A stretch of 43,343 bases of DNA from Phycisphaerae bacterium. GTDB taxonomy: Bacteria; Planctomycetota; Phycisphaerae; Sedimentisphaerales; UBA12454. Position 1 is the stretch's first letter. Every line of letters begins with the position of its first letter. The stretch lies in the NCBI GenBank assembly GCA_026386845.1, contig JAPLMW010000027.1:1-43343 (forward strand). Reading direction: 5' to 3'. The notes beneath the pieces are model-generated. The model did not search any database. It was not told the DNA's origin and was given only the letters and a program-made list of their open reading frames with translations. Of the stretch, positions 3,801 to 25,960 are shown in pieces. The position numbers and the translations under genes were made by a program.

Positions 3801-4232
3801 ATGAAGATAAAACAGATTTCCATATTTCTGCAAAATAAGAAAGGCAGACTCTACGATGTGTGCGCAGTATTGGGGAAAAACAATATCAACATCCGTGCGC
3901 TTAACGTCGCGGAAACCGAAGCCTTCGGCGTGCTGCGAATTGTCGTAAACAAGCCGGACGAGGCGGTCAAGGCGCTGGGCGAGGCGAACTTCGTCGCAAA
4001 TATCACGGATGTCGTCGCTGTTGAAGTGCCGGACAGGCCGGGGGGACTTGCGGAAATACTGAAAGTTCTGGCCGACGAGGATGTGAACGTCGAGTATATG
4101 TACGGATTCGTTGAAAAAGCAACCGACGAGGCGCTGATGGTGTTCCGATTCGATAATCCCGACAAGGCGACGGAGATACTTAAAAAACATAATATCAAAA
4201 TCGCAAGCGAAAAAGAAATTAAAGAACTGTAA
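3801..4232 (+). CDS. Tandem ACT-domain protein
   Basis: A 143-residue protein made of two ACT domains, about residues 1-68 and 70-143. ACT domains are small beta-alpha-beta-beta-alpha-beta units that usually bind amino acids and regulate metabolic enzymes. The segments KKGRLYDVCAVLGKNNINI and RPGGLAEILKVLADEDVNV are the characteristic Gly-Leu helix starts of the two copies. No catalytic domain is attached. It follows the phenylacetate-CoA ligase by 11 nt with GGGATTGAAAA before the ATG and is very likely cotranscribed. A role as amino-acid sensor or stabiliser of the ligase is inferred from context only. A strong terminator follows. Confidence 0.9.
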   Translation: MKIKQISIFLQNKKGRLYDVCAVLGKNNINIRALNVAETEAFGVLRIVVNKPDEAVKALGEANFVANITDVVAVEVPDRPGGLAEILKVLADEDVNVEYMYGFVEKATDEALMVFRFDNPDKATEILKKHNIKIASEKEIKEL

Positions 4233-4262: not shown

Positions 4263-4302
4263 AAAAATGCCGCATCTGAAGTTTTTCAGGTGCGGCATTT
4301 TT
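4263..4302. terminator. Bidirectional Rho-independent terminator
   Basis: An 18-bp stem (4263-4280 with 4285-4302) with a GTTT loop has A-rich and T-rich flanks on both sides. It can stop the PaaK-ACT transcript on the plus strand and the aldo/keto reductase operon arriving from the minus strand. Confidence 0.9.
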
Positions 4303-4316
4303 GTTTTTACAATATT

Positions 4317-5558
4317 TTACGCAAGGAGTTTTTGAGCTTCTTTAATCAGGGAGCCGATAGGCATTCTGTTTGGGCAGAGTTTTTCGGCAAGGCGATAATC
4401 AAAACTGCCGATGGGGGCACTGACGCGAGAAGCGACATCAGAGAAAACCTGCTTTGCAAGAGGCGTATCGCCATATTTGCGATGATACATTAAAGACCTC
4501 ATCACATCATTGACATACGGCATCTGCGGAACCGCGGCGGAGCAGATATTAGCGCAGCCGGCACAATAACCGCTGCAAGTCTGCTTTGCGTAACTGTTCA
4601 TAAAATCCAAATCGCTTCGGCTTAATTCGGTTTTGTCGAGGACGGCGGCGACGTTCGATGTGAGAGTCGCAACATTTTTCATACCGACACAGGCTGAACA
4701 TATACGCTCATCCTGAAGGACAACTTTTATTTTGGCCTGGCCTTCCGAAAAGCCTTTCTGGATGAAATAATTGCCAAGAGAATTGCTGTCCCCGGTGTCC
4801 GATTTGAGGGCCTGAGTTTTCATCGCAATTAAAGCGATGCCGGCTTTGCTGCAGGCGTCAACGGCGGCAACGAGATTGGCGTCCTTCATCAACTGATAAT
4901 TATAGCTGGTCATTATGGCGTCAATCCAGTCGAGCTTGGCAGCGGCTGCCAGACAATCGGCCATATTTGAATGCGTGCTAAAGCCAAAATACTTTATGAG
5001 GCCTTTGGCCTTTGCGTCGGCGGCCCATTGCTTAAGCTCGTCTGTCAGACCCGCGGGGCTGCTTAAGGCGTGAACGCCGTAATACAAATCAACGTAGCTT
5101 GTGTTCATTCTTTTAAGAGAAGCCTGGAGGCAGGCGGTGCGTGAGGCGGCGTCTTTTGCGCCAGATGCCTTTGTAACTATGAAAATGTCCTTGCGGCGCT
5201 GGGGATTTTGGGCGAGAAACTGACCGATGCCTATTTCACTGTTTCCGCCGGCATAACCGTAGGCGGTGTCCCAGTAATTAACGCCCCATTGCAGGGTTTT
5301 GTGCAGCATTATCTGGTTGGCAACGATGTCAAACATCGCGCCGAAAGACAAAATAGGGACAGGGATTTTAGCGCGGCCGAGAAGACGGGTGGGAACCTGC
5401 GAATAGGTTTCCTTTTTCTCAACAGGTTTATTCGGTTCGGCGGGTTTGTTGGCGTCTATCACGGCAGCTAAAACGGAGCCTGACGCGATTGCAGAAGCAA
5501 TGCCGGTGCCGGCGGCGGTTTTCAAAAATTCACGTCTGTTTATCGGTTTACTTTCCAT
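4317..5558 (-). CDS. Tat-exported aldo/keto reductase with C-terminal Cys cluster
   Basis: This 413-residue protein starts with a twin-arginine signal (RREFLK, arginines 8-9, then an Ala/Gly-rich hydrophobic stretch). It is therefore predicted to act outside the cytoplasmic membrane with a folded cofactor. The aldo/keto reductase barrel (about 55-290) shows WDTAYGYAGG, VTKASG and the YGVH segment, which carry the Asp/Tyr/Lys/His catalytic set of the family. Beyond the barrel lies a Cys cluster, C328-x3-C332-x2-C335-x3-C339, resembling an iron-sulfur ligand set of COG1453-like reductases. The start is supported by AGGAGGT seven bases upstream of the ATG. It is the last gene of the five-gene minus-strand operon, 62 nt behind a polyferredoxin that might supply electrons. 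A Tat-exported aldo/keto reductase raises the question of the reductant, because NADPH is absent outside the cytoplasm. Substrate unknown. Confidence 0.9.
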   Translation of the reverse strand: MESKPINRREFLKTAAGTGIASAIASGSVLAAVIDANKPAEPNKPVEKKETYSQVPTRLLGRAKIPVPILSFGAMFDIVANQIMLHKTLQWGVNYWDTAYGYAGGNSEIGIGQFLAQNPQRRKDIFIVTKASGAKDAASRTACLQASLKRMNTSYVDLYYGVHALSSPAGLTDELKQWAADAKAKGLIKYFGFSTHSNMADCLAAAAKLDWIDAIMTSYNYQLMKDANLVAAVDACSKAGIALIAMKTQALKSDTGDSNSLGNYFIQKGFSEGQAKIKVVLQDERICSACVGMKNVATLTSNVAAVLDKTELSRSDLDFMNSYAKQTCSGYCAGCANICSAAVPQMPYVNDVMRSLMYHRKYGDTPLAKQVFSDVASRVSAPIGSFDYRLAEKLCPNRMPIGSLIKEAQKLLA

Positions 5559-5620
5559 TGTCTGACCTCCTAAAATAACATTGCCATAATTTTAACAAAT
5601 ATAAATTACAAATAAAGACC

Positions 5621-7333
5621 TTATTTTTCTCTTGTTTGGCCATAGGCTGTTACAAATATAGCACCTCTGCCGCTGACGGGACATTCGTGCTGGCAGATAC
5701 CACAGCCGATGCAAAGAGCCTGGTTGATATACGGCTGCTGAAGCCTAATCTGAATTTGAATTTCCGCTGCGGATTGCGGAAGAACTGTCAATGGGGAATC
5801 CGGGGATATTCTAATCGTATCGGCAGAGTTTGAAATAATCTTAGCCTGAATGGTTTTGCCGTTGGAATTGAACTGACAATAATAATCGCCGGTTGAAAAT
5901 CTTTCAGGAGAAAGAACGCCTTGCTCGAGCAGTATATTGTTATTCTCTGCGGTTTTGACTTTGAGCCGGTCAGAGACATTGGCAAAAACCGTGCGAGTGT
6001 AAATAGCCTTTGGGCTTACGGGACAGTTCTCCTGACAAACAATACAGGGCGTATTAAAAGCCCACGGCAGACACCTTGTCTTGTCGAAGAAGGCTGTGCC
6101 GAGCTTAACGGGGCCGTTGCTCTCAAAATTGCCTTTGCCTAACTTTTCAGCAAGCGTTAACGGCCTTATCGCAGCGGAAGGACACATATAGCCGCAGGCG
6201 ACGCAGTCAAGCTGGCAGCCGCTTGAGCCGATACGGTTGTTCATTACCGGTGTCCAGAGATTCAACAGGCCGGATTCGATACCTGCCGGCTGGATTACGT
6301 TTGTCGGACAAATCCGCATACACTGGCCGCACTTCAAGCAACGCTTAATAAATTCGTTCTCTGATAATGCGCCGGGCGGACGAACGATACCCTCAGAATC
6401 CTTCGAATAAGCGAGGAGTTTGAAAGCGGGCATCGCAAGCAGACCTGTGAAAGCTACCGCTAAAAAGCCGCGGCGCGATAAATCGGGGGAAACCTGAACA
6501 GTATCAGAAGAAGCGGTGCTGAAATCAATCGCGTTAAATTGACAATCGTCAAGGCAATTAAGGCATAAGATACATTCGCTCTGCTTTAGCGTTTCAGAAG
6601 GCTGACAGGAGCCTTGGCAATGTTTATTACATAACTTGCAGTCGGTGCAATTGGAATTGCGGTTGATACGCCAGAGTGAAAATCTGTTTAATAATCCAAA
6701 AAGAGCGCCGAGAGGACATATAAAAAGGCAGAAAAATCGCGGGATAAAGAAATTCAAAAGCGCAAAGGCAAGAAAGACCGACAAAATCAGCGGGGCGGTG
6801 CGGAAGAATCTATCTGCTGCTGAAAGAAGATTGATTGAATTATCGACGAGCGGCAAAAGCAAAAGATTGACAGTTCGAGTGAAAAGCGGGATGGGGTCGA
6901 GCAAACCGGTCTGGAGATTTTGCAAAGACGGCAGGGCGGCAATAATTAAAAATATAATCAATATATAATATTTTATATTCTGGGCTTTTCGATATTTATG
7001 CAGCGAGACGAGGTCTAAAGGTTTTTTGCCCCTGTGCGAAAGATACGAAATGAACTGATGCAATGAGCCGAAAGGACAAATAAAACCGCAGAAGAATCTG
7101 CCTATTAAAATCGTTAAAACAATCGTCAAAACAGACCACAGCAGTGGAGCATAAAGCCTGTGCGTTGAAAGAGTTGTGGAAATTGCGGCAAGCGGGTCGA
7201 GGTGCAGGAAGATATTGACAGGCCAAGCGCGGAGCTGGAAGAATTTTTCGCCGACGGTCGTTACAACGCAGAGCCAAATGAAAAGCACGAAAAAGAAAAG
7301 CTGACTAATTTTTCTGGCGGTAGTTATTTTCAT
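5621..7333 (-). CDS. NapH-like membrane polyferredoxin fused to ferredoxin domains
   Basis: A 570-residue membrane electron-transfer protein. The N-terminal half has several membrane helices and two NapH/MauN-type motifs, FFCGFICPFGSLHQF and RFFCLFICPLGALFG. Then come Cys-rich segments CTDCKLCNKHC and CILCLNCLDDC. In the middle is a second Tat-like signal (SRRGFLAVAFTGLL), followed by more 4Fe-4S motifs: CLKCGQCMRICP, CVACGYMCP, CIVCQENCP and CIGCGICQHECP. The arrangement looks like a NapH-type anchor joined to a NapG-like extracytoplasmic ferredoxin. NapH/NapG pass electrons from quinol to periplasmic partners, so a similar route to the exported proteins of this operon is plausible (inference). 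It lies 13 nt after the PHP gene. The internal SRRGFL at the junction supports an ancestral gene fusion. Confidence 0.88.
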   Translation of the reverse strand: MKITTARKISQLFFFVLFIWLCVVTTVGEKFFQLRAWPVNIFLHLDPLAAISTTLSTHRLYAPLLWSVLTIVLTILIGRFFCGFICPFGSLHQFISYLSHRGKKPLDLVSLHKYRKAQNIKYYILIIFLIIAALPSLQNLQTGLLDPIPLFTRTVNLLLLPLVDNSINLLSAADRFFRTAPLILSVFLAFALLNFFIPRFFCLFICPLGALFGLLNRFSLWRINRNSNCTDCKLCNKHCQGSCQPSETLKQSECILCLNCLDDCQFNAIDFSTASSDTVQVSPDLSRRGFLAVAFTGLLAMPAFKLLAYSKDSEGIVRPPGALSENEFIKRCLKCGQCMRICPTNVIQPAGIESGLLNLWTPVMNNRIGSSGCQLDCVACGYMCPSAAIRPLTLAEKLGKGNFESNGPVKLGTAFFDKTRCLPWAFNTPCIVCQENCPVSPKAIYTRTVFANVSDRLKVKTAENNNILLEQGVLSPERFSTGDYYCQFNSNGKTIQAKIISNSADTIRISPDSPLTVLPQSAAEIQIQIRLQQPYINQALCIGCGICQHECPVSGRGAIFVTAYGQTREK

Positions 7334-7346
7334 AATATTTTAAAAA

Positions 7347-8303
7347 TTAATTCCTATTTGGTTCTTCAATAACAATCGGGTTTGTCCATGCGTGCCTGCC
7401 GCCGGCATCGACAATTTCAGCCCTGACCCATTTTATTTTTTCCGAAAGTTTATAGCTGGCGGAAGTTATCAGATGGTTCGGGTCGGCTGTGACGTTATGG
7501 CTGAATGTATTTTGTCCCATAAAGCATATCTCGACCACCGGTGAACATTTTACTACGGCTTGACCAGCTTCGATGCGAAAATCATCAAACGCCGGGCCGC
7601 AGGAGGCATAAAAACAACCTGTTCGCAAGGCATCCATTATCGCCTTGGGTGTAAGCTCCTTTGCCTTTATCATTGTCCAGCTCTGGGCAATTCGCGCACT
7701 TTTGTGCAAATCATCGGCCGCAACAGCCGGTATGATACGGCCGGTATTAAGCAACTGGTCCCACTGGACGGAATTGTATCCTTTGCCGGTATAGGAGAAG
7801 TCGCCGTTATATACTTCCATTGCTATATAACCGTTAACGGTCAGCATATCATTAGTAGTATGCCCCGACCAATACGGATGAGCGAAGATAATTTCTCCGC
7901 CAGCGGCTTTGACCTGGCGAATGCGTTCCATTGCATTTACATCCGCTGCGAATTTCAAGCCCTCCGGAATATTCAGACATACAAAATGATATGGGACCTC
8001 TGCATTGCTTTTTGGGTGAGTTTCCATTCCGTTTAGTAATAAAAAGTTTGAGTCCGAGTATCCGGCGATATTGTTGGTTTTCTCGTGGTCTGTAACCGCA
8101 AGAACCTGATAGCCTTTGTCACGATACTGTTTGACGCGAACCGGCAGATTTACATCACCATCGGAAAGAGTCGTATGTGTATGCAGGTTTGCCTTATACC
8201 AATTGCCGGATGTTGTAAACGGGTTAACCAAAATATTGGCATTGGCGGACGAAATCAGAGAAAAGAAACAGATGATTGTTAATATACAGCAAAGTTTTTT
8301 CAT
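7347..8303 (-). CDS. Secreted PHP-domain metallohydrolase
   Basis: A 318-residue protein with a clear signal peptide (MKKLCC, hydrophobic core, cleavage after SANA near residue 23). A PHP domain follows: NLHTHTTLSDGD carries the first metal-binding His pair and Asp, VTDHEKTNN the next His, and FAHPYW and ADDLHKS further ligands. PHP proteins are usually metal-dependent phosphoesterases. This secreted class (COG0613-like) has no established substrate. It lies 3 nt downstream of the DUF362 gene and 13 nt upstream of the polyferredoxin, so it is translated from the same message. How a hydrolase fits a redox operon is not clear from sequence. Confidence 0.88.
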   Translation of the reverse strand: MKKLCCILTIICFFSLISSANANILVNPFTTSGNWYKANLHTHTTLSDGDVNLPVRVKQYRDKGYQVLAVTDHEKTNNIAGYSDSNFLLLNGMETHPKSNAEVPYHFVCLNIPEGLKFAADVNAMERIRQVKAAGGEIIFAHPYWSGHTTNDMLTVNGYIAMEVYNGDFSYTGKGYNSVQWDQLLNTGRIIPAVAADDLHKSARIAQSWTMIKAKELTPKAIMDALRTGCFYASCGPAFDDFRIEAGQAVVKCSPVVEICFMGQNTFSHNVTADPNHLITSASYKLSEKIKWVRAEIVDAGGRHAWTNPIVIEEPNRN

Positions 8304-8306
8304 TTT

Positions 8307-9302
8307 TCAGCCTTCAATCTTTGCGTAAACCGGTTTTAAAGATTCATAATCAGTTGTGCCAAGTTTCAGTTCCTGAGCTTTTAAAAGATAAGGTAAGTCG
8401 GCAGGTTTCATATTTAATAGAGTAGCTCCGAAACTGTCAACAGCAACCTGGTCGCAGCCTGCTATCATTATATCAGTCTGTTTCAAATCGGAAGAAGAGC
8501 CGCCGGTCGGGCCGTTTGAAATCATAACCTGGGTGCCATCGAGAATGACGAGCGTGGGTTTAACGAGCATCGCAAGCTCAACAATGATAGTATTAATGTC
8601 GGTGTGGAAGATACTTCTGCCGCCGCCGAGGAGGCCATACCAGTTTTTCATTACCATAGACGCACCGCTGCGACTATGGTCCTTAACGACCGCTATTCCG
8701 ATAACCTTGTCAACATTTTTGAGCGGTTCATAAAGGAAAGGCCAATTTTTTATAAGTTTTCCGCCAGGCAAAGTCAGCGGCCTGAAATAATTTGCCTTTG
8801 GCGAAATTATTTCCGCACCGCATTTTGCGGCGGCAGCGGATATTCCGCTTAATTCAAAGCAGCTTTTTGAATCATTAATGGGATTATCGGTAATATAAAC
8901 TTTTTTTGCTTTTGCCTGCTCGTAACAAAGCGTTGCGATTTCAGAAATGATGTCCGGATGACTGGTAGCACAAATTCTCGGCGGAGAGGCAAAGCCGATA
9001 TTAGGCTTGAGCAGGACGGTTTCGCCGGGCCGGACAAAACGGGTTATGCCGCCGAGAAGTTCGACGGCCCTGCGGACTGTCTGACTGCGAGCCGAGCCGG
9101 ATACAATGCTCATTGTCTGACCGGCAACAGGAGAAACGGAGTAATCCTTCAAACCTGAAACAGCAGAGAGCTTTGGGAGCATATTTAGGACATCAGATTC
9201 GTAAAGCCATTTTGCGGCGGCAGCGGCGGCGGCAACAGAAATGCCGGCCTTTGCGGAACGAGCCAGAAATTGTCTTCTTGAGATTTTATCGTTATGCGTC
9301 AT
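8307..9302 (-). CDS. Tat-exported DUF362-family protein
   Basis: The predicted start is the ATG at 9302, giving 331 residues. An open frame continues upstream, but this ATG sits right before a twin-arginine signal (SRRQFLARSAKAG, then a run of alanines). The body matches DUF362: a VLLKPNIGF motif, a Cys (RICATSHPD), the VIGIAVVKDHSRSG segment and the DQVAVDSFGATLL C-terminal motif. DUF362 proteins are widespread in anaerobes, often next to ferredoxin domains, and lack a settled biochemical role. Cofactor insertion before Tat export would explain the signal. The start codon lies one base after the stop of the upstream gene, so translation is probably coupled. No Fe-S motif of its own is visible; the neighbouring polyferredoxin may supply it. 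Confidence 0.87.
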   Translation of the reverse strand: MTHNDKISRRQFLARSAKAGISVAAAAAAAKWLYESDVLNMLPKLSAVSGLKDYSVSPVAGQTMSIVSGSARSQTVRRAVELLGGITRFVRPGETVLLKPNIGFASPPRICATSHPDIISEIATLCYEQAKAKKVYITDNPINDSKSCFELSGISAAAAKCGAEIISPKANYFRPLTLPGGKLIKNWPFLYEPLKNVDKVIGIAVVKDHSRSGASMVMKNWYGLLGGGRSIFHTDINTIIVELAMLVKPTLVILDGTQVMISNGPTGGSSSDLKQTDIMIAGCDQVAVDSFGATLLNMKPADLPYLLKAQELKLGTTDYESLKPVYAKIEG

Positions 9303-9303
9303 T

Positions 9304-10242
9304 TTATTTTTTAGGAAGATTTTGTATGAGTTTTTCCGCGAGTTTTTGCAAATCATCAATCGGCGCCGAAGCGCGGACGCCGGCAAAGAAGCCGCCGGTT
9401 ACAAAAAATATCTCATTTGTGCCGAATAATTCGACCGTCTTAGAGTCAGGCAGTTTGATAGTATGCTGCAAATCCTTTGCCCCGTTGTCAATCAGGAAAC
9501 GATAATATTTCGCGTAAGTATCAGCAGGATTATTTTTGCTTAAATAGGCTGTTATATCGTTTCCGCTGATTTTATAGTTTGCGGTGAAGATGTTTTTGAG
9601 GTCGCTGCAGCTGAAGGCATCGGCGTTGATGAATTTAAAGGAGTCAGCGATGAGATTATCGGTTGGGAAAAGGTCAAAAACAGGCATTTGGGTTTTGCCG
9701 GCGGATATTGCAGATGAAAGCTTCTTTGCGGCGTTTAGTGCCGATGTCAAAAGAGAATTGTCCTGAGAAGATAAAATTATCTCCATATAATATTTGCCGA
9801 AAGCGGCGTAAACAGAATCCGAAGCCGAATAACCAAACTGAGTCCAATCCAGAGGAGTGCTATCGTTTCTTTTCTGGAGGCTGTAAACGGCAAATGCGTT
9901 TTCGCCATCGGCCATATCGTAAAGATAAACTTCTGCCTCGCGGTCCTTTACCGAGTTATCCGTAAAACGTCTGCATTGAAGGGAAATAAAACCATTGCTG
10001 AGATATAAATCGTCTTTGCCGTCGATTTTTTCGTAAAGACTTTTTGAATTATAATTCTCAATATCTTCGGCGGCGGTGAAATTGCCTGCGAAAAGGTCAG
10101 CGGAAAGAATAGCCGAGTCAGAGCCGGATTTCTGGTAAGATTTCTGCTTAAAGCCTATGGCGACGGCAATGAAAACAAGAAGAATCAGCAAAAACCAGCT
10201 TATAACTGTCTGCCGGAGACTGTTTCTGGTTGATTGAGGCAT
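9304..10242 (-). CDS. Membrane-anchored DUF6599-like protein
   Basis: A 312-residue protein with one N-terminal transmembrane segment (SWFLLILLVFIAVAIGF) and a soluble extracytoplasmic body. The body holds the segment SLYEKIDGKDDLYLSNGF and the EVYLYDMADGENAFAVYS region, which I recall as typical of DUF6599-like proteins in planctomycetes; this family name is from memory and not checked. An upstream ATG at 10263 is possible, but the good promoter at 10276-10304 would put the RNA start only ~6 nt before it. The ATG at 10242 with GCGGG upstream is therefore preferred. It is the first gene of the operon, followed after one base by DUF362. Function unknown; it could be a scaffold or sensor for the exported redox proteins. 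Confidence 0.8.
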   Translation of the reverse strand: MPQSTRNSLRQTVISWFLLILLVFIAVAIGFKQKSYQKSGSDSAILSADLFAGNFTAAEDIENYNSKSLYEKIDGKDDLYLSNGFISLQCRRFTDNSVKDREAEVYLYDMADGENAFAVYSLQKRNDSTPLDWTQFGYSASDSVYAAFGKYYMEIILSSQDNSLLTSALNAAKKLSSAISAGKTQMPVFDLFPTDNLIADSFKFINADAFSCSDLKNIFTANYKISGNDITAYLSKNNPADTYAKYYRFLIDNGAKDLQHTIKLPDSKTVELFGTNEIFFVTGGFFAGVRASAPIDDLQKLAEKLIQNLPKK

Positions 10243-10275
10243 AAATTTACCCGCTTGCAACATTAATAGGCTGCA

Positions 10276-10304
10276 ATTATACTATTATATAACTTCAACG
10301 TCAA
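10276..10304 (-). promoter_or_regulatory. Strong sigma70-type promoter of the Tat/Fe-S operon
   Basis: On the minus strand TTGACG (10299-10304) and a perfect TATAAT (10276-10281) are 17 nt apart. The predicted start is near 10269. It drives the five genes down to the terminator at 4263-4302. Confidence 0.75.
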
Positions 10305-10321
10305 TGTATATTGGGAAATAA

Positions 10322-10345
10322 CCCGCCGTGAAACGGCGGGCTAAA
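10322..10345 (+). repeat. CTAAA-tagged hairpin
   Basis: CCCGCCGT (10322-10329) pairs with ACGGCGGG (10333-10340) over a GAA loop, followed by CTAAAT. Same loop and tag as the copy at 25063-25086. Confidence 0.8.
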
Positions 10346-10355
10346 TATATACGAA

Positions 10356-10407: not shown

Positions 10408-10629
10408 ATGATGCAGTTAACGCAAAATATAATGGCGTGGGGCTCAATCGGCTGGGCAGAATTGCTTGTGGTATTGGTTATCGCTCTTCTTATCTTCGGC
10501 AAGCGTCTGCCGGATGTGGCTCGTTCATTAGGCAAAAGCCTTACAGAATTCAAAAAGGGAATGAATGAGACCAAAGACGAGATAGAAGACAAGACCAAGC
10601 CAGATGAAGACAAGGAAGTAAAGAAGTAA
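10408..10629 (+). CDS. tatA: Sec-independent translocase subunit TatA/TatE-like
   Basis: A 73-residue protein with the TatA plan: a short exported N-terminus, one membrane helix (LLVVLVIALLIFG), the FGKRLPDVARSLGKSLTEFKKG hinge plus amphipathic helix region, and a charged tail. TatA forms the pore of the twin-arginine export system, which moves folded, cofactor-bearing proteins. GGAG lies nine bases before the ATG at 10408; a second Met codon follows at once. The gene points away from the minus-strand operon that encodes two Tat substrates and a Tat-like internal signal, which makes functional linkage likely. No tatC is in the window. The last codons and the stop lie in a simple GGAAGTAA-type repeat. 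Confidence 0.93.
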   Translation: MMQLTQNIMAWGSIGWAELLVVLVIALLIFGKRLPDVARSLGKSLTEFKKGMNETKDEIEDKTKPDEDKEVKK

Positions 10630-10917: not shown

Positions 10918-11029
10918 TTTACCCCCACACCAATTTGTATTGTGGGAGTAAGGTTCGTAAAATAGTCAAAAACTGTTTAGGCAGGTTTTAAAAATGTTCA
11001 ACCGTAGTGCAAATTGGTGTGGGGGTAAA
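10918..11029 (+). repeat. Inverted-repeat element, copy 2, forming the trpS leader
   Basis: The left end TTTACCCCCACACCAATTT (10918-10936) is the exact complement of the right end (11011-11029), giving 19-bp perfect terminal inverted repeats. The 74-bp interior is shared with the copy at 1170-1273. In RNA the ends would close one long stem. The right arm carries GGGGGT, the only ribosome-binding site candidate for trpS. No protein is encoded. It could be a MITE-like insertion or a mobile regulatory RNA. Confidence 0.8.
11021..11026 (+). promoter_or_regulatory. Ribosome-binding site of trpS inside the repeat
   Basis: GGGGGT lies eight bases before the trpS ATG and can pair with the CCTCC anti-SD through one G-U pair. 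It is part of the right terminal repeat, so folding with ACCCCC at 10921-10926 would hide it. Confidence 0.45.
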
Positions 11030-11034
11030 ATTAA

Positions 11035-11997
11035 ATGAGAGTATTATCAGGGATTCAGCCGTCCGGCAGATTGCATATCGGCAATTACTTCGGCGCTATG
11101 CGCCAGCACCTTCAGCTCCAGGCTGAAAACGATGGGTTCTATTTTATCGCAGATTACCACGCCCTGACCAGCGGGCCAAAGCCGGAAGATTTAAGGCAAA
11201 ATAAATTGGCGGTCGCAATGGATTATCTTGCGCTCGGTCTGGATACGAATAAAACGGTTTTCTGGTGCCAGTCCGATTTGCCGCAGGTTACGGAACTGTG
11301 CTGGATTTTGTCGTGTGTAACGCCGATGGGACTTTTGCAGAGGTGCGTAAGCTATAAAGAGAAAATCGAACAGGGCATCAGCCCCAATCACGGCCTGTTT
11401 GCGTATCCGGTTCTACAGGCGGCGGATATTTTGATTTTCGACAGTAATCTTGTTCCTGTCGGAGCCGACCAGAAGCAGCATATAGAAGTTACAAGAGATA
11501 TCGCAGGCTATTTCAATAATACTTACGGCGAAACGTTCGTTATTCCCAAAGAACATATTCTCGAATCTGTTGCGGTTGTGCCGGGGCTTGACGGGCGAAA
11601 AATGAGCAAAAGCTATAACAACACCATTGAGATTTTTGAGCCTGAGCAGTCTGTAAAGAAAAAAGTAATGAGCATTGTTACGGACTCCACTCCTGTCGAA
11701 GCTCCGAAGAATCCAGACAAGTGCAACGTGTTTGCATTGTTAAAATTGGTGTCGTCGAAAGAAGAACTTGCGGAATGGGAAAAGAAATACCGGCAGGGCG
11801 GTATGGGTTACGGGCAGGCCAAGAAAAGACTTGCCGAACTTCTGATTGAATACTTCAAACCATATAGAAAGAAACGTGCCGAACTTGAGCAGAATGCCGA
11901 TTACGTGCGGAAAGTCCTGCAGGAAGGCGCTCAAAAAGCCAAAGCAGCGGCCCAAAAGACCCTCGAGAGGGCGAGAAAGGCCGTGGGAATAGATTAA
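11035..11997 (+). CDS. trpS: Tryptophanyl-tRNA synthetase
   Basis: This 320-residue class I aminoacyl-tRNA synthetase charges tRNA-Trp in the cytoplasm. Both class I signatures are present: HIGN at residues 14-17 (GIQPSGRLHIGNYFGAM) and KMSKS at 189-193 (GRKMSKSYNN). The segment PVGADQKQHIEVTRDIA is typical of bacterial TrpRS. The length is normal. The start codon follows the inverted-repeat element by five bases, which makes its leader unusual; there is no T-box or trp-attenuator signature. The gene appears to be transcribed alone; a 220-bp stretch with hairpins separates it from scpA. Confidence 0.97.
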   Translation: MRVLSGIQPSGRLHIGNYFGAMRQHLQLQAENDGFYFIADYHALTSGPKPEDLRQNKLAVAMDYLALGLDTNKTVFWCQSDLPQVTELCWILSCVTPMGLLQRCVSYKEKIEQGISPNHGLFAYPVLQAADILIFDSNLVPVGADQKQHIEVTRDIAGYFNNTYGETFVIPKEHILESVAVVPGLDGRKMSKSYNNTIEIFEPEQSVKKKVMSIVTDSTPVEAPKNPDKCNVFALLKLVSSKEELAEWEKKYRQGGMGYGQAKKRLAELLIEYFKPYRKKRAELEQNADYVRKVLQEGAQKAKAAAQKTLERARKAVGID

Positions 11998-24957: not shown

Positions 24958-25058
24958 AAAAGAGGTTTTGATGAATGGTTTAGATGAAGTGCTGTTTGCA
25001 GAGAGCCGGAAACTGTCGAGATGGCTAAGACGAATATCTTTTCCGCTAATATAAGAAC

Positions 25059-25086
25059 AAAACCTGCCGTGAAACGGCAGGCTAAA
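25059..25086. terminator. CTAAA-tagged hairpin acting as folD terminator
   Basis: CCTGCCGT (25063-25070) pairs with ACGGCAGG (25074-25081) over GAA, followed by CTAAAT on the plus strand. On the minus strand the stem directly follows the folD stop codon, whose TAG is read from the CTAAA tag, and continues into TTTTGTTCTT. It therefore looks like a working Rho-independent terminator for folD. Confidence 0.75.
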
Positions 25087-25960
25087 TGTTTGCCTTTGCG
25101 CTCTCGACGGTATTGTATAATAACATAGTGATAGTCATCGGCCCGACGCCGCCGGGGACTGGTGTAATTAAACTTGCCTTTTTGCTGACATTTTCAAAAT
25201 CCACATCGCCGACAAGCCGAAAACCCGCCTTCTTTGTCGAATCTTCAACTCTGTTTATGCCGACATCAATAACAACGGCGCCATCTTTTATCATATCAGC
25301 CGTTATAGCGTTCACTTTGCCTGCCGCAGCAATGACTATATCAGCTCTTCTCGTATGAGCGGCTACATCTTTCGTCCTCGTATGGCATACAGTAACCGTA
25401 GCGTTGCCGGCAGGGGATTTCTGAATCAGCATATTCGCAAGCGGTTTGCCGACGATATTGCTTCTGCCGACAATTACGACTTCTGCGCCGTCAAGTTTTA
25501 CGCCGCTCCTTAGGAGCAATTGCACAACGCCATTGGGCGTGCAGGGCAGAAACGCTTTTTGGCCGACGACCATTTTGCCGACACTTATCGGATGAAAGCC
25601 GTCAACGTCCTTTGCGGGGTCAATTGCCAATAAAACTTTTTGCTCATCTATGTGTTTTGGAAGGGGCAACTGAACGAGGATTCCGTTAATTTTCGGGTCT
25701 TTGTTCATTTTATTGACGAGGGCAAGCAAATCTTTTTCGCTCGTCTCTGCGGGCAGACGGTTATCATCGGAATAAATGCCTATTTCGCCGCAGGCCTTTT
25801 CCTTGGCGGTTACATAGGAGACAGAAGCGGGGTCTGCACCAACGAGGATTACGCCAAGGCCGGGGATGATGCCTTTAGCCTTGAGCTTTTCAATTTCAGC
25901 TTTTAGTTCAGCCCGGATATTTGCCGCGATTTGTTTACCGTCAATGATTTTGGCTGGCAT
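25082..25960 (-). CDS. folD: Methylenetetrahydrofolate dehydrogenase / cyclohydrolase
   Basis: A 292-residue FolD, the bifunctional enzyme linking 5,10-methylene-, methenyl- and 10-formyl-tetrahydrofolate. Signatures are [15 protein letters not shown] (with the catalytic Lys), [21 protein letters not shown], the nucleotide-binding [14 protein letters not shown], and [14 protein letters not shown]. The length is normal. The stop codon lies in the tag of a repeat hairpin that serves as its terminator. It follows the BioD/DRTGG gene by 98 nt on the same strand, and no separate promoter stands out. Confidence 0.97.

Follow-up and report, generated by a model that had tools for sequence, protein, structure and literature searches.

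The closest described counterpart of the system considered here is NapGH, the quinol dehydrogenase of the periplasmic nitrate reductase, which passes electrons outward and whose relatives include NosR, MauMN and PceC/RdhC. Likenesses also exist to iron-sulfur (Fe-S) aldo/keto reductases (AKRs) with a C-terminal ferredoxin domain (COG1453 type), and to glucose-fructose oxidoreductase of Zymomonas, an enzyme exported by the twin-arginine translocation (Tat) pathway that works outside with tightly bound NADP. Here we analyze a five-gene operon on the minus strand of a 43,343-nt contig from a Phycisphaerae bacterium of the Planctomycetota (JAPLMW010000027.1, assembly GCA_026386845.1; hereafter, the window). 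Four of its genes form a conserved core, in one order and on one strand, in at least six phyla. They encode a DUF6599 protein (9304-10263; PF20244, E=4e-42), a predicted Tat-exported DUF362 protein with a predicted LarA fold (8307-9302; PF04015, E=6e-43), a polyferredoxin that matches NapH and NapG fused into one chain (5621-7333), and an AKR with a Tat signal and a C-terminal Fe-S tail (4317-5558; PF00248, E=8e-24), all on the minus strand.

To assess the conservation of this arrangement, named genomes were scanned with a DUF362 alignment, which gave 80 loci, distributed over Planctomycetota, many Desulfobacterota, Verrucomicrobiota, Sumerlaeota, Myxococcota and a spirochaete bin. Most of these loci carry DUF6599, DUF362, polyferredoxin and AKR in that order on the same strand. 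DUF6599 lies directly upstream of DUF362 on the same strand in 69/75 testable loci of other genomes, the polyferredoxin follows DUF362 on the same strand in 64/69, and an AKR lies within 9.5 kb in 42/54. The recurrence of the first two linkages argues that the arrangement does not reflect chance. At more divergent loci of the class, the AKR is placed before DUF6599. No recurrent extra partner gene was found beside the modules, except tatC and lineage neighbours.

The core genes are also inherited together. A phylogenetic profile across 120 genomes from the class detected DUF362 in 26 of them (E at most 1e-20), DUF6599 in 18 and the module-type AKR in 11; DUF362 was present in 17 of the 18 genomes with DUF6599, and DUF6599 in 10 of the 11 with the AKR (hypergeometric p = 4e-9, uncorrected for relatedness). 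The four core proteins also show correlated pairwise distances (r 0.68-0.86), and 0 of 2000 permutations reached values as high. Because host relatedness adds to this correlation, it supports co-inheritance and not physical contact. The initial annotation, made from the sequence of the window, had proposed that the five genes form one unit, and had named scattered genes in relatives as evidence that would speak against it. No such scattering was seen: apart from the PHP gene discussed below, the relatives keep the genes together across phyla, and the profile that it had called for shows DUF362, DUF6599 and the AKR to co-occur.

Three of the four core proteins carry Tat motifs, namely DUF362 (75/80), the AKR (55/58) and the polyferredoxin, in which the motif is internal (46/57); in DUF6599 the count is 1/71. 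These predicted signals agree with the earlier suggestion that the unit is extracytoplasmic and redox-active.

The polyferredoxin has four transmembrane segments and about six predicted [4Fe-4S] motifs. Its NapH part, a four-helix domain, contains a pair of CxxxCP motifs and a pair of [4Fe-4S] motifs; in 28 aligned sequences C82/C86, C202/C206, C232-C239 and C254-C264 are invariant and C229 is nearly so. Its NapG part contains four [4Fe-4S] motifs, formed by Cys sets that are invariant in the same sequences (332-342, 373-384, 421-437 and 541-551), and is preceded by an internal Tat signal helix, SRRGFLA... (6410-6478, minus strand; the RR motif being that counted above). This helix would put the NapG part on the outer side of the membrane; in the predicted topology, the two NapH clusters would face the cytoplasm and the four NapG clusters the outside. 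The module thus shares with NapGH the four-helix NapH protein with CxxxCP motifs, the NapG-like polyferredoxin on the outer side, and Tat export. It differs in that both parts form one fused chain with an internal Tat helix, in that the terminal protein is an AKR, and in that no nitrate reductase, cytochrome or copper enzyme is recurrently linked; a quinol donor is also doubtful here. The protein scores far below the curated NapH and NapG equivalog cut-offs (69 of 234 bits and 64 of 269 bits, respectively).

The AKR barrel aligns to solved AKRs, and its catalytic tetrad is conserved (D97 in 53/53 sequences, Y102 in 52/53, K130 in 53/53, H163 in 51/53). The matches in the PDB reach as far as profile position 326 and stop short of the tail, where Cys332, Cys335, Cys339 and Cys395, the last followed by Pro (4374-4565, minus strand), are the predicted [4Fe-4S] ligands; the first three are found in 53/53 sequences and Cys395 in 52/53. 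Divergent AKR homologues have two full CxxCxxCxxxCP motifs in this tail. What remains of them in the window clade is Cys 1-3 of the first motif and Cys 4 of the second, precisely the four residues that ligate one and the same cluster in ferredoxins with two clusters. The tail is therefore predicted to bind exactly one [4Fe-4S] cluster, and the other appears to have been lost as a set. An additional Cys290, present in 52/53 AKRs, falls within the loop by which ordinary AKRs bind the NADP phosphate. With COG1453-type AKRs, the module AKR shares the barrel, the tetrad and C-terminal Cys motifs ending in CP, and it differs from them in its predicted Tat export, in the retention of one cluster out of two, and in the conserved Cys290. 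Several loci contain the AKR in 2-4 copies, mostly in tandem, the aligned copies being 51-82% identical, while the other core genes are single. This is as expected for a variable, substrate-facing catalytic subunit. At one locus (L084:10783-17144), four AKR genes with 59-72% mutual identity lie downstream of a single module, which suggests an expansion of the terminal enzyme.

The DUF362 structure is predicted with high confidence (predicted local distance difference test score, pLDDT, of 93.6), and its ten best Foldseek matches in the PDB are all of the LarA family (probability 0.99-1.00, E 9e-5 to 9e-4, template-modeling score by query 0.39-0.47). On the strength of this model, DUF362 has the LarA fold; both families belong to Pfam clan CL0471 (PMC11770544). 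A signature, H209-x9-K219-x13-H233 (8604-8678, minus strand), is invariant in 60/60 module homologues, and also in 16/16 aligned homologues, and resembles H174/K184/H200 of LarA, whose homologues show H-x9-K-x15-H. In LarA, the nickel-pincer cofactor is held in place by Lys184 and has His200 as a ligand (PMC11770544). When the LarA and DUF362 profiles are aligned with hhalign, H209 and K219 coincide with the His and Lys of LarA, but the alignment is not significant, and the DUF362 profile gave no real match to PDB sequences. Against the shared clan, the fold found by Foldseek and the similar His/Lys/His spacing stand three differences: DUF362 is predicted to be exported, equivalents of LarA H108 and R75 are not evident in its sequences, and the cofactor genes are missing in the window's family. 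That is, no LarB, LarC or LarE was found above cut-off in any of the three genomes of this family (G000, the window's own, G105 and G116), and the known route to the ordinary cofactor is therefore not available to them. For this family of genomes, a nickel-pincer cofactor in DUF362 was ruled out on these grounds. The same three genomes contain orphan LarA homologues (in G000 at C65:92292-93107, L168), and the G000 and G116 copies have the His/Lys/His site.

DUF6599 is predicted to consist of an N-terminal membrane helix and two tandem beta-beta-alpha-beta-beta-beta-alpha domains (AlphaFold pLDDT 92). Foldseek returned weak matches only, including RseB, TM1622, TiME and PsbP, and no confident PDB relative of the fold. 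The domains may be PsbP/Mog1-like. PsbP-like domains are typical of assembly factors.

Based on what was computed, namely the linkage and joint inheritance of the genes, the Tat signals, the cluster ligands, the tetrad of the AKR and the folds, our best reading, to which we assign a probability of about 0.4, is that an Fe-S wire spanning the membrane serves an exported AKR, together with a partner of LarA fold and with DUF6599 as a scaffold anchored in the membrane. Electrons would cross the membrane through the NapH-NapG fusion, i.e., via two cytoplasm-facing clusters, the Tat helix and the four outside clusters. The NapG part would then trade electrons with the exported AKR at the one [4Fe-4S] cluster that the tail of this enzyme carries, and the AKR would reduce a carbonyl using a pyridine nucleotide. 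This nucleotide is proposed to remain bound because free NADPH is unavailable outside. DUF362 would be a second subunit that acts on a similar hydroxy or keto compound, or holds a cofactor, and DUF6599, anchored in the membrane by its helix, a scaffold or assembly factor with two PsbP-like domains. The proposed AKR resembles the Zymomonas oxidoreductase in being exported and, if the assumption of bound NADP holds, in retaining its nucleotide tightly; the Zymomonas enzyme differs in having another fold, no Fe-S cluster and no membrane electron partner.

Several observations weigh against this reading. The direction of electron flow and the bound NADP are assumptions. In 12/54 loci no AKR lies within 9.5 kb, and at some loci the polyferredoxin is missing. 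Two divergent AKRs (L053 and L067) are without the catalytic Asp. One genome (G028) has the AKR but no match to DUF362 or DUF6599; its gene (L180:735-2072) is of the module type, with a Tat signal and Fe-S tail, and suggests a remnant or an independent use. Finally, the usual markers of quinone synthesis were not found. Specifically, profile markers for MenD and MqnA domains gave no match in the window's genome or in its relatives within the order, while a MenA-type prenyltransferase scored above cut-off in the window's genome. The same combination, a MenA-type family with neither MenD nor MqnA detected, thus marks G000, the window's genome, as well as G056, G063 and their relatives, and suggests that the menaquinone pathway is unusual or missing in this order. 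A quinol donor made by the futalosine or the classical Men pathway was set aside as a candidate on the missing MqnA and MenD markers. Thus, quinol as the donor, which the initial annotation had proposed, is unproven and doubtful; with equal likelihood, the electrons would come from a cytoplasmic ferredoxin that reaches the inner clusters.

That MenD and MqnA were not found in the window's genome is also consistent with electrons moving in the opposite direction, i.e., with an exported AKR that oxidizes an alcohol, hydroxy acid or sugar, and a polyferredoxin that takes the electrons to a cytoplasmic ferredoxin or a membrane acceptor. Among the alternatives, this one survives best, although we consider it unlikely. 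It would suit the many hosts that are sulfate reducers or other anaerobes, and the likeness of DUF362 to LarA, which acts on hydroxy acids. However, the characterized relative, NapGH, delivers electrons outward, and no transporter or catabolic gene recurs beside most of the modules.

Less probable again is a role in maturation or repair, in which DUF362, DUF6599 and the polyferredoxin would service Tat proteins, be it the exported Fe-S AKR or others, and would not be an electron pathway for catalysis. The PsbP-like domains of DUF6599 would fit such a role, as would tatA and tatC adjacent to the module in Planctomycetota and the modules that have no AKR nearby. The six conserved cluster motifs and the NapG-like architecture, on the other hand, fit electron transfer, and it is the AKR, with its catalytic tetrad kept, that has been multiplied, while the other genes have not.

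A different partition of the module is raised by two genomes of another family, in which LarB-LarE-LarC lie directly upstream of a DUF362 gene with a Tat signal and a NapH-NapG polyferredoxin gene (L060:1536-7451 in G091; L061:145-5975 in G079). Judged from the gene content, this cluster may encode a pincer enzyme that is exported and electrically connected to the membrane, and provides a lead toward an electron-coupled pincer dehydrogenase or reductase. It is improbable, more so than a maturation role, that the DUF362-polyferredoxin pair is the core of the module, with DUF362 an exported LarA-fold pincer (or related pyridinium) enzyme whose hydride electrons, unlike those in LarA racemases, cross the membrane via NapH-NapG. 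Marginally less probable still is a module in which DUF362, as a Tat-exported enzyme of the nickel-pincer type connected to the polyferredoxin, carries the main catalysis and the AKR is one of several accessory enzymes. The LarA fold, the invariant H-x9-K-x13-H and the cluster in these two related genomes speak for such a catalyst; the missing LarB, LarC and LarE in the window's genome and two further members of its family, the lack of evident H108/R75 equivalents and the non-significant hhalign result speak against it. That the genes are unrelated neighbours, co-transcribed by chance, is highly improbable, since only the variable PHP insert fits this explanation, and the order conserved across phyla, the shared phylogenetic profile and the correlated distances contradict it.

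The fifth gene of the operon, between DUF362 and the polyferredoxin (7347-8303, minus strand), encodes a secreted PHP hydrolase of the CehA/McbA family (NCBIfam NF038032, E=6e-33), scoring 114.7 bits against a domain-model cut-off of 80. It shares the PHP fold with that family and differs in being secreted and in not being conserved with the module. Among the fetched loci, PHP occupies this position only in the window, L046 and L080; it is absent from L047, L081 and L082, which are about equally close relatives, and from all other loci. In the same slot, L084 has a gene for a secreted DUF4832/GH42-like protein, and L056 a transposase-like open reading frame (ORF), as judged by eye. PHP is thus a lineage-specific insert, an optional cargo outside the core and not the pathway member that it had initially been taken for. 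Because it is confined to close relatives, it is uninformative about the substrate of the module, and because it matches CehA/McbA hydrolases and not phosphoesterases, it gives no ground for assuming that the substrate is phosphorylated or cyclic. The proposal of such a substrate was accordingly rejected, the gene being a sub-lineage insert that is replaced in L084.

The layout of the operon agrees with its first description. The five ORFs lie on the minus strand at the positions noted initially, with intergenic gaps of 1, 3, 13 and 62 nt. DUF6599 probably starts at 10242 instead of 10263, because the proteins of close relatives begin there; the distance to the divergent tatA (10408-10629, plus strand; TIGR01411 and PF02416) is then 166 nt, which matches the figure given earlier. 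A single promoter and terminator are likewise plausible. A promoter-like site, TTGACG-17-TATAAT (10304-10276, minus strand), matches the consensus at 11/12 positions, the best of 15 in the region, by consensus match only, and an 18-bp hairpin with T-runs on both strands (4263-4302) is the candidate terminator of the minus-strand operon. An ACT-like gene (3801-4232), convergent with the operon, shares this hairpin, which by its sequence can serve as a bidirectional terminator.

The link to tatA holds in part. tatA is divergent here, and it lies close upstream in 11/80 named loci, 10 of which also have tatC; all 11 belong to the Planctomycetota side of the named set, two of them being titled 'uncultured bacterium' or 'Candidatus Kuenenia'. 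Among the Desulfobacterota loci, neither gene was found adjacent, so that among the named loci the association was seen on the Planctomycetota side only. Within the window, tatC was not found, and only tatA adjoins the operon. The region between operon and tatA also contains one copy of a dispersed palindrome, AACC(C/T)GCCGTGAAACGGC(G/A)GGCTAAAT, found at 10308-10346 and 25049-25087 with a paired change in the stem; the palindrome adjoins a second hairpin, CCCTGCCATAGTGATGGCAGGG, and the element is REP-like (repetitive extragenic palindrome). A 114-nt direct repeat, 82% identical, occurs at 1167-1280 and 10919-11032, the latter copy directly upstream of a trpS-like ORF at 11035, and is possibly a regulatory or mobile element.

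In the open-access literature searched we found no description of the module, no mention of DUF6599 and nothing relevant on exported Fe-S AKRs. DUF362 appears in nine papers, and those consulted report no comparable module. Thus, the module exists, is widespread and, to judge from that literature, is undescribed. Its parts belong to known families, and its electron-transfer part is NapGH-like; what is new is that an exported Fe-S AKR and a protein of LarA fold are combined with it. Taken together, these data define a compact redox module common to Planctomycetota, sulfate reducers and other anaerobes, and place DUF6599, together with one DUF362 clade, in a specific context that can be tested. 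They lead to the prediction that an exported AKR would be driven by a membrane Fe-S wire and not by free NADPH, and open the way to asking whether DUF362 proteins may be exported kin of the nickel-pincer enzymes.

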